36,229 bases of DNA from Halalkalicoccus subterraneus (GTDB lineage Archaea; Halobacteriota; Halobacteria; Halobacteriales; Halalkalicoccaceae): positions 1 to 36,229 of the forward strand of contig NZ_RDQG01000011.1 of assembly GCF_003697815.1 (NCBI RefSeq). Direction: 5' to 3'. Shown piece by piece: positions 9,359 through 18,951 of this stretch. The number at the start of each line of letters is the position of its first letter. Position 1 is the first letter of the stretch. The notes beneath the pieces are model-generated. The model was not told the origin of the DNA. It ran no database searches and saw only the letters and a program-made list of their open reading frames with translations. Both the position numbers and the translations under genes were made by a program.

Positions 9359-11662
9359 ATGAGCCTCTCGGATTCGGATCGCGAGATCATTACTACGGAA
9401 CTCGGCCGCGAACCCACACGGGCCGAGGCCGCACTGTTCGAGAACCTCTGGAGCGAGCACTGTGCGTATCGCTCCTCGCGGCCCCTGCTCGGCGCGTTCG
9501 ATTCGGAGGGCGAGCACGTCGTCGTCGGGCCCGGCGACGACGCCGCGGTCGTCGCGCTCCCGGACCCCGGGACGGGGGAGTCGAGCGGGACCTACATCAC
9601 GCTTGGAATCGAGAGCCACAACCACCCCTCCTACGTCGACCCCTACGACGGGGCTGCGACGGGGATCGGCGGCATAGTACGGGATACCCTCTCGATGGGC
9701 GCATACCCCCTCGCGCTGACCGACTCGCTGTACTTCGGCGGGTTCGATCGCGAGCACACGCGCTACCTGCTGGAGGGCGTCGTCGAGGGGATCTCCGATT
9801 ACGGCAACGCCATTGGGGTTCCCACCGTCGGCGGCAGCCTCGCCTTCCACCCGGACTACGAGGGCAATCCTCTAGTCAACGTCGCCTGCGTCGGCCTCGT
9901 CACCGAGGACCGCCTCGTCACCGCCGAGGCCCAAAAGGCGGGCAACGCGCTCGTGCTCGTCGGCAACGCCACCGGTCGGGACGGGCTGGGCGGGGCCTCC
10001 TTCGCCAGCGAGGACCTCGCGGAGGACGCCGAGACCGAGGACCGCCCCGCGGTGCAGGTCGGCGACCCCTACGCGGAGAAGCTGCTCATCGAGGCCAACG
10101 AGATGCTCGTCGATGAAGGGTTGGTCGAGTCCGCCCGCGACCTGGGGGCGGCGGGGCTGGGCGGGGCGTCCTCGGAACTCGTCGCGAAAGGTGGTCTGGG
10201 CGCACGGATCGATCTGAACAGCGTCCACCAGCGCGAGCCGGACATGAACGCCATGGAGATCCTGCTCGCCGAATCCCAGGAGCGAATGTGCTACGAGGTC
10301 CGTCCGGAGAACGTCGACCGGGTCGAGGAGATCGCGGCGCGCTTCGATCTGGGTTGTTCGGTCATCGGCGAGGTCAGCGAGGGGAACTACACCTGTACGT
10401 TCGGGGGAAGCGAGGCACAACGCGTTCGAGAACCGCAGGGTGGTTCTCCCAGCCCATCAGAAGTGCGTTGCACTTCTGAGGACGCCTCGGACGGCCCGGG
10501 CGGTGAGCAAGGCGAACCGCGAGGGCGCGAGACGGTCGTCGACGTCCCTCCCGGCTTTCTCACCGATGGCGCGCCGATGAACGACCTCGACTACGTCGAG
10601 CCCGAAGAACCCGCACGCGAGGTGCCCGACGTCGATATCGAGGAGGCGTTTCGGGAGGTCGTTTCGAGCCCGAACACTGCGAGCAAGGAATGGGTCTACC
10701 GCCAGTACGACCACGAGGTCGGCCTGCGAACGGCCGTGAAGCCGGGCGACGACGCCGCCGTGTTGGCCATCCGGGACGCGGACGCTGCGAGCAGTGCGGA
10801 CCGCGGGCGCGGATCGGATCTGGCGATCTCGGCGGGCGCGGATCCCAACTGGACGGCCGCCGACCCCTACGAGGGCGCGCGGGCGGTCGCCGTCGAGAAC
10901 GCGACCAACCTCGCGGCCAAGGGTGCGACCCCGCTCGCGGCCGTCGACTGCCTCAACGGCGGCAATCCCGAGAAACCCGACGTGTATGGTGGTTTTCGGG
11001 CGATCGTCTCGGGGCTGGCCGATGCCTGTTCGGCCCTCGCGGTCCCGGTCGTCGGCGGCAACGTCTCCCTGTACAACGATTCTGCGACCGGCCCGATCCC
11101 GCCGACCCCGACGCTCGCGATGGTCGGGACGGTAGACGATCGAGATGCCCCGCCGACGCGTCTGGCCGGCGAGGGGTCCCTCCTGGTCGTCGGCGACCCG
11201 GTACTGACGGGCGACGCGACGCCCGAACTGGGCGGCTCGGAGCTGCTCGCGCGCGTGGGCGGCTCGGATCGTTTCCCTGCACCCGCCGAAAACGCCCCCG
11301 CGTTCGCCGGAGCGCTCGCGGGGATCGCCAACGACGAGGGAACGCTTGCGGTCCACGACGCGAGCCACGGCGGGCTCGCCGTGACGCTCGCGGAGATGGT
11401 CGGCGAGGCCGGCGCGCGCGTCGACCTCTCGGGCGGGCCGGCGCTCGGGCGGCTGTTCAACGAGCGTGCGGGCCGTGCAGTGATCGAGACGACCGACCCC
11501 GACGCCGTCCGCGAGCGCTTTTCGGGGGTCGCGCCCGTCGTCGAGATCGGCGAGGCCACCCCCGAGGAGACGCTCGAAATCGCGACTGACGTGGGCGAAC
11601 TCGTCTCCGACGCCGACGAGATCGCCGCGCTGCGCGACGTCCTCGCACGTGAACTGGACTGA
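9359..11662 (+). CDS. purL: Phosphoribosylformylglycinamidine synthase subunit PurL, with an in-frame insertion
   Basis: Fourth step of purine synthesis: FGAR + ATP + glutamine-derived ammonia to FGAM, with PurS and PurQ encoded elsewhere. The 767-aa protein has the two AIRS-like halves of small Pur[25 protein letters not shown] and [18 protein letters not shown] in the first, [42 protein letters not shown] and [10 protein letters not shown] in the second. Between them, around residues 358-388, is a low-complexity segment ([20 protein letters not shown] and following) absent from the expected [15 protein letters not shown] join. Its DNA has two hairpins and 7-bp flanking direct repeats. It does not break the frame. 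Monocistronic with a leaderless start. Confidence 0.95.
10428..10520 (+). repeat. Palindromic in-frame insertion inside purL
   Basis: Two hairpins lie side by side: gagaacc/ggttctc (10428-10434 and 10442-10448) and a perfect 10-bp arm pair tcagaagtgc/gcacttctga (10457-10466 and 10470-10479) with a 3-nt loop. The 7-bp sequence gaaccgc occurs at 10430-10436 and again at 10514-10520, exactly 84 nt (28 codons) apart. Deleting one repeat and the material between restores a plausible PurL linker. This looks like a small mobile or palindromic element inserted in frame. Confidence 0.6.
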
Positions 11663-18193: not shown

Positions 18194-18203
18194 TCCGAGT
18201 CAA

Positions 18204-18213
18204 CGCTTTTGTC
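18204..18213 (+). promoter_or_regulatory. TATA-like box of the thioredoxin-like gene
   Basis: cgcttttgtc is centred about 28 nt before the ATG at 18236, supporting that start over the in-frame upstream codon at 18209. Confidence 0.4.
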
Positions 18214-18235
18214 CTTCGCGGTCCCGAGATTCGAT

Positions 18236-18853
18236 ATGGCGCTCCAGAAATCCGACAGCGACCTCGCACGCGACGACCCGGCTCCCGAGTTCGAGCTGCC
18301 CGGCGCGGACGGCGGGACCTATTCTCCCGAGGATTTCGCGGACCGCGAGGCGCTGCTCGTGGTCTTTACCTGTAACCACTGCCCGTACGCGAAGGCGAAG
18401 ATCGACCCGCTGAACGCGATCGCACGCGAGTACGACGAGGTGGCGGTCGTCGGGATCAACGCCAACGATGCCGAGGCATACGCTGAGGACTCGTTCGAAC
18501 GCATGAAAGAGCTGGTCGCGGACGGTACCGTTGAGTACGACGCCTACCTGCGCGACGAGTCCCAGGAGGTCGCTCGCGCATACGGCGCGGTCTGTACGCC
18601 CGACCCGTTCCTCTTCGAACGACAGGACGGCGAGAAGTCGCGCTCCTCGGAACGGTCGAGCGGATCGGATCCGCGAGACGGCGAGTTTCGACTGGCCTAC
18701 CACGGCCGGATCGACGACGCCCACGACCCCGACGCCGAGCCGACCGAACACGACCTGCGCGAGGCCATCGAGCAACTGCTGGCGGGCGAGTCGGTCACCG
18801 TCGAGGAACAGCCCTCACGAGGTTGCTCGATCAAGTGGCGAGATACGACCTGA
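18236..18853 (+). CDS. Thioredoxin / AhpC-TSA family protein with an in-frame insertion
   Basis: Redox protein with a peroxiredoxin-like fold. In the 205-aa product DDPAPEFELPGADGG opens the AhpC/TSA domain and VVFTCNHCPYAKA gives the Cys46-x-x-Cys49 pair. TCTPDPFLF-like (VCTPDPFLFERQ) is the cis-proline strand. Residues about 134-147 (KSRSSERSSGSDPR) interrupt the expected DGEFRLAYHGRIDDA strand; the DNA around them carries a 9-bp direct repeat that is in frame. The C-terminus has SRGCSIKWR, a conserved ending of this family. Function: probably a peroxide or disulfide reductase; substrate unknown. Confidence 0.88.
   Translation: MALQKSDSDLARDDPAPEFELPGADGGTYSPEDFADREALLVVFTCNHCPYAKAKIDPLNAIAREYDEVAVVGINANDAEAYAEDSFERMKELVADGTVEYDAYLRDESQEVARAYGAVCTPDPFLFERQDGEKSRSSERSSGSDPRDGEFRLAYHGRIDDAHDPDAEPTEHDLREAIEQLLAGESVTVEEQPSRGCSIKWRDTT
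18626..18685 (+). repeat. Insertion bounded by 9-bp direct repeats in the thioredoxin-like gene
   Basis: gacggcgag occurs at 18626-18634 and 18677-18685, exactly 51 nt apart (17 codons). The 42 nt between encode KSRSSERSSGSDPR and contain an inverted repeat gcggatc-g-gatccgc (18660-18674) plus tcgcg/cgcga near its ends. Removing one repeat and the 42 nt restores the uninterrupted strand DGEFRLAYHG. The structure resembles a target-site duplication around a very short insertion. Confidence 0.7.
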
Positions 18854-18951
18854 AAGCGTGCCGGGGCAGCAGCGTTTATGCTCTCAGCGCACCATATAGT
18901 ACGCTGGATCACCTGAATCGACGGCGATCGCATCGAGATCCGGTGGTCGGA

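Follow-up and report, generated by a model that had tools for sequence, protein, structure and literature searches.

An in-frame insert in a thioredoxin-like gene

The window analysed here, the whole 36,229-nucleotide stretch of Halalkalicoccus subterraneus DNA (contig NZ_RDQG01000011.1), contains a gene in which a short direct repeat brackets an apparent extra segment, and the question is whether a mobile sequence has entered this gene and persisted as part of its protein. The gene (18236-18853, + strand) encodes 205 amino acids and, as a preliminary description had proposed, is thioredoxin-like, its product being a thioredoxin-fold AhpC/TSA protein (PF00578, 2e-14; PDB relatives 2cvb and 3u5r). 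The layout of the site was likewise confirmed. The two copies of GACGGCGAG (18626-18634 and 18677-18685, both + strand) are exactly 51 nt apart with 42 nt in between, the insert is in frame with the host gene and translates as KSRSSERSSGSDPR, and the palindrome GCGGATC-G-GATCCGC is present at 18660-18674. In the host protein the insert separates two conserved strands, FLF and F.LAYHG. The AF2 model has it between strands 123-129 and 151-156 with a pLDDT of 57-71, against 89 overall, and thus places it at a predicted turn of low confidence.

The repeat alone is proof of nothing, because perfect 9-mer direct repeats are common in this GC-rich window, where 40 of them occur at a spacing of 30-70 nt; it is not beyond chance. 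The insertion itself is beyond chance, since it is absent from five congeners and most of the order, and since an independent covariance model, described below, finds it. Sister species do have an empty site, the five congeners having a short turn at this position (FLFRRENGEFRLAYHG and similar).

An element of two tandem hairpins

The consensus of the element (AGCGAGGCGCAACGCGCCTCGGACAGTCGAGCGGCGGAGCCGCGAGAC) comprises two tandem hairpins over ~48-51 nt; the first has a stem of 8 bp and a loop of 3 nt, and a short spacer separates it from the second, of 5-7 bp. When 12 genomes were searched with its core pattern, allowing up to 3 mismatches, 25 matches were found in 9 of them, mostly in unrelated genes; a reversed control pattern gave 0 matches in the same genomes. 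A covariance model (R1) was then built from 19 aligned copies, none of which comes from the thioredoxin-like gene. In this alignment, 96% of cells agree with the two-hairpin structure. The stem covariation score is 0.271 versus 0.086 in shuffles, with 0 of 500 shuffles reaching it, and slid partners, used as a control, give at most 0.048.

Because R1 contains no copy from the thioredoxin-like gene, its match to the window insert is an independent test. The match (18629-18679, + strand) scores 33.5 bits, with an E-value of 6.4e-7 in the search of the window and 6.4e-5 for the whole genome, and it is the only strong match in the window, the runner-up scoring 19.5 bits. It represents a degenerate copy of the 51-nt form, with a long spacer and a long second hairpin. 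Hairpin 1 (18631-18649, + strand; CGAGAAGT-CGC-GCTCCTCG) keeps 7 of 8 pairs in the cmsearch alignment, including one G-U, and the palindrome at 18660-18674 (+ strand) forms hairpin 2, at model positions 31-43. On the evidence of sequence, the 17-residue stretch of the thioredoxin-like protein derives from a haloarchaeal hairpin element of about 50 bases, of which it is a worn copy. That the copy is worn and its E-value modest counts against this reading; the fold of the copy alone is no better than that of shuffles (z -0.11) and is uninformative. R1 also finds other thioredoxin-gene copies, with scores of up to 76 bits, and a 19-nt run (CCTCGGAACGGTCGAGCGG) is common to the window copy and the copy at L098. 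Plain DNA or peptide similarity gave no convincing further copy in the same genome, where copies were recovered by the structure-aware model alone, and no Rfam family matched window positions 18200-18900.

In a set of 26 equally long copies within genes, 329 of 338 base pairs are preserved, and entropy is 0.44, 0.41 and 0.46 at the first, second and third codon positions, respectively. Furthermore, the frame of the second hairpin differs between the 51-nt and 48-nt forms (SSGDEPRD versus RAAEPRD), compensating indels restoring the frame of the host. Since codon position 3 is no more variable than the others, and since hairpin 2 is read in different frames in the two forms, these patterns point to conservation acting on the nucleic acid and not on the peptide. 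Template-switch correction of quasi-palindromes, which belongs to the established mutational mechanisms, could repair the stems in the same way in the absence of selection.

R1 matches at E ≤ 0.001 were found in 341 of the 392 genomes of the order and in 80 of 95 genera, a tally that includes some hits to a related intergenic repeat. Copies per genome, as lower bounds, are at least 7 in the genome of the window and at least 4-22 within the family. In a phylum-wide draw of 197 genomes, 29 had a match, 28 of these belonging to this order, and the lone match outside it is weak (E 6.5e-4). The strong R1 matches in four genomes of one genus (G109, G040, G050 and G013) represent a distinct intergenic repeat and were left out of the in-gene counts. 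This repeat (L243-L260) has similar hairpins, AGCGTGGCGCTACGCGCCACGG..CCGGCGGCGAAGCCGCCGG, in many near-identical copies, and is possibly a recently active relative of the element. Three identically scoring copies on short contigs of a fragmentary congener assembly (L185, L192 and L202 in G004) perhaps belong to a larger repeat. A phage source was also considered, and the match proved to be one of chance only.

Strand and frame of copies within genes

The coding frame of both flanks was called from codon usage, with the element itself ignored. Strict criteria were passed by 40 of the 79 copies in a first set and by 8 of 40 in a second; as L268 and L194 are one and the same, 47 distinct strictly in-gene copies are left, the remainder being at gene edges, unclear or intergenic. 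These 47 copies are spread over 35 host gene families. All 47 lie on the sense strand of the host gene, and about 45 are read in a single frame (SEAQRASDSRAAEPRD; SEAQRASD...); the consensus is open in all six frames. In the first set, 37 of 40 copies are in phase 0; L193 and L209 have the same frame as the majority if their match is taken to start at a shifted position, and the left half of L141 is shifted. In the second set the proportion is 7 of 8, L267 being shifted. Hosts named by NCBIfam include PurL, UvrC, CarB, ArgS, PurC, KsgA/RsmA, PyrF, HutG, MoeA and a YdiJ/GlcD-like oxidase, the copies in KsgA, PyrF and HutG being from the less strict set. In the public annotation of Halorussus plasmids, the element is located inside thioredoxin-family and FAD-linked oxidase genes. 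Tandem or double hairpin inserts within one gene were observed at L150, L176 and L280 (e.g., EAQSASKNASSAERSSADSRAATPRD), which suggests that elements accumulate at tolerant sites.

Empty sites and the target sequence

In uvrC the insert is present in G002 alone and eight family relatives are empty; in carB it is present in G009 alone, with three family relatives empty; in argS it is confined within the family to G003, with a DNA insert of 48 nt; and in the FAD-oxidase gene it is shared by G000 and G006 and missing from G001. These empty sites in sister species show insertions into each of the four genes. None of the four filled/empty comparisons revealed a constant target duplication. No duplication of the flanks was found across 40 in-gene copies, the longest shared string being 3.68 nt versus 3.55 nt at control positions. 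No terminal inverted repeats were detected in the consensus, the two hairpins being separate and unlike, and the element thus has neither of the features, terminal inverted repeats and target-site duplication, by which MITEs are recognised. At the site in the window, the left GACGGCGAG overlaps the conserved 5′ end of the element itself (AGCGAG/GGCGAG), and the repeat is not a target-site duplication. The right copy lies partly on the 3′ end of the element and partly on host sequence, and the empty homologue L115 reads GAGGACGGCGAGTTC at its position. The proposed short in-frame insertion is upheld, at a loop that is empty in sister species, and it belongs to something dispersed and far below transposon size; its target-site duplication falls away.

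A second, nested member of the family was found in the window, within purL (ORF 9359-11662, + strand), at 10408-10525 on the + strand, by alignment with insert-bearing congeners and with the empty G004. The same site is filled in seven family members and empty in G004. In the purL copy (fold z -3.7), the first hairpin is interrupted by two more, GAGAACC..GGTTCTC and AGAAGTGC-GTT-GCACTTCT; the insert amounts to ~40 residues, the additional hairpins sitting inside the first hairpin of an older copy.

The loop of the thioredoxin-like gene in relatives

The insert is not a unique event in this strain, since homologues from other genera and families have related loops whose DNA has diverged. Two species of another genus in the same family (G008 and G009) have a 17-aa loop, AREDGEERGSSDESSGGRPRDGEF, clearly related to that of the window. 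A search of the loop region in 392 genomes of the order returned more such loops in three other families (e.g., RNEGHEAQRASERSSGDEPRDDEF and RNSEAQRASDSRAVEPRDDEGDTF), and their DNA forms two tandem hairpins with a common consensus, not merely a Ser/Arg-coding stretch. When presence of the element was placed on a gene tree (95 rows, loop removed), on which gain and loss are indistinguishable by themselves, at least 11 gains or losses were required, at least 5 of which are forced by well-supported branches. The nearest relative of the window gene is the empty congener G001. Repeated gain, possibly with loss or transfer, at one tolerant turn is the simplest account, and inserts of related species at this loop could in part have come with the gene, by inheritance or horizontal transfer. 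The same turn also has expansions rich in Asp, Gly and Ser that lack the element (L104, L109, L111-L118 and L123, with L115 empty), so the turn is generally tolerant.

Origin of the insert

We consider it very probable that the insert goes back to a palindromic element, non-autonomous and dispersed in haloarchaea, of which it is a degenerate copy tolerated as a translated loop. The element would be copied into new sites, presumably by a transposition-like process, without a fixed target-site duplication, and insertions within genes would persist only where a hydrophilic, stop-free segment of 16-17 residues can be tolerated. Such tolerance would restrict the surviving copies to surface turns, to the sense strand of the gene and to essentially one of six frames, so that the element would be translated as a loop of the host enzymes. 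In the thioredoxin-like protein, the loop that connects strands 123-129 and 151-156 would be one such tolerant site, filled or emptied many times. The bias in strand and frame would then arise from purifying selection on the host protein. Because the favoured frame is hydrophilic and has the most acidic residues, purging of harmful insertions is probably the simplest account of this bias.

It is possible, though doubtful, that the copies were spread in trans by a single-stranded-DNA (Y1/HUH) transposase, which would sit inside the explanation preferred here. The hairpins, the lack of a target-site duplication and the strand asymmetry are all in keeping with such an enzyme, and Y1 proteins occur in 4 of the 8 copy-bearing genomes examined; REPs with RAYTs, for which spread by a Y1/HUH transposase in trans has reportedly been proposed, offer a precedent. 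However, a Y1 (IS200/IS605-type) transposase was absent from the other four genomes (G062, G141, G391 and G060), all of which have strong copies, and no element copy was found beside the 7 Y1 loci examined, although the enzyme could have been lost since. An insertion process itself tied to the coding strand, e.g., via RNA or transcription, and spreading specifically inside genes seems unlikely to us. If true, it would mean a steady addition of translated loops to core enzymes throughout haloarchaea.

The strict sense orientation, the near-single frame, the kept stems and the many hosts among central-metabolism or repair genes might also be expected of a functional peptide or RNA module, such as a protein tag or a regulatory mRNA structure, recruited repeatedly and not a selfish insert. 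We find this quite improbable: essential genes of close relatives carry the insert patchily, the reading frame of its right half is not the same in the 48-nt form as in the 51-nt form, and positions that change the amino acid vary as much as silent ones. Very improbable, too, is an ancestral Ser/Arg/Asp-rich protein loop, inherited vertically and lost many times. Loops of similar length and composition do occupy the same place in several families, G008 and G009 of another genus have a closely similar one, and Ser/Asp/Gly-rich loops without the element occur here as well (L104, L109, L111-L118). The pattern that had been named as refuting an insertion, a shared loop with variable DNA, was thus literally found. 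Its cause is not one old protein loop, because the element recurs at this loop, where the tree requires no fewer than 11 changes and G001, the nearest relative, lacks it, and in 35 other, unrelated gene families that match it at the nucleotide level; nor are third codon positions freer. A miniature transposon of the classical type (MITE), flanked by a target-site duplication of 9 bp, which would account for the direct repeat with its internal palindrome and for a dispersed family with empty sites, is hardly credible for an element without terminal inverted repeats, whose in-gene flanks (40 copies) are no more alike than controls, whose four dated insertions have no constant duplication and whose 9-mer repeat is of a kind common in the window.

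Comparison with known elements

The element shows that palindromic sequences inserted in frame, as found in some bacteria, are present throughout almost an entire archaeal order, in genes such as uvrC, argS, carB and purL. It also accounts for a class of hydrophilic loops in haloarchaeal proteins that look specific to a lineage and might wrongly be read as adaptations to salt, and the movement of the insert and its one-strand, one-frame bias become testable in genetically tractable haloarchaea. In the full-text literature searched, which takes in few subscription papers, neither an earlier description of this archaeal element family nor its peptide or DNA consensus was found.

The RPEs of Rickettsia are short dispersed palindromic elements found in frame in unrelated genes, including housekeeping genes; they are bacterial and mostly about 100-150 bp (PMC10969869, PMC3733652). 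The haloarchaeal element resembles them in that its palindromic copies sit in frame in unrelated genes and are missing from the same sites in relatives, and differs, as compared by description, in being haloarchaeal, 48-51 nt long and made of two unequal hairpins with a consensus of its own. REPs are mainly intergenic, have GTAG or CGTC tags, and some are linked to RAYT transposases (PMC3733652). Some intragenic REPs of the GTAG/CGTC families, 20-40 bp hairpins, lie in uvrA, tRNA synthetase and recombination genes, and their dimers encode 20-30 aa (PMC3733652). The element shares with REPs the dispersed hairpins with a conserved stem; unlike them, its 47 distinct copies are strictly intragenic and all in sense, with no adjacent Y1 gene, and neither a GTAG nor a CGTC tag is present in its consensus or constant in the flanks listed.

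Among haloarchaea, the PATEs and SMRs of Haloquadratum walsbyi are, in the accessible part of the published account, short mobile elements without a transposase that have palindromes or inverted ends (PMC3119063). According to the same part, PATEs derive from IS605 ends, and SMR-A, of about 110 bp, targets other mobile elements and, like the element described here, makes no target duplication (PMC3119063). The likeness lies in short, transposase-free haloarchaeal elements; neither PATEs nor SMRs are described in that part as in-frame inserts in housekeeping genes, unlike the present element (PMC3119063). Intragenic palindromic inserts in bacteria and short transposase-free elements in Haloquadratum are thus known already. 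The dispersion, the empty sites and the hairpins fit a non-autonomous element of the RPE/REP kind. Of the kinds already known, bacterial intragenic palindromic elements, namely RPEs and intragenic REPs, come closest to the haloarchaeal element.
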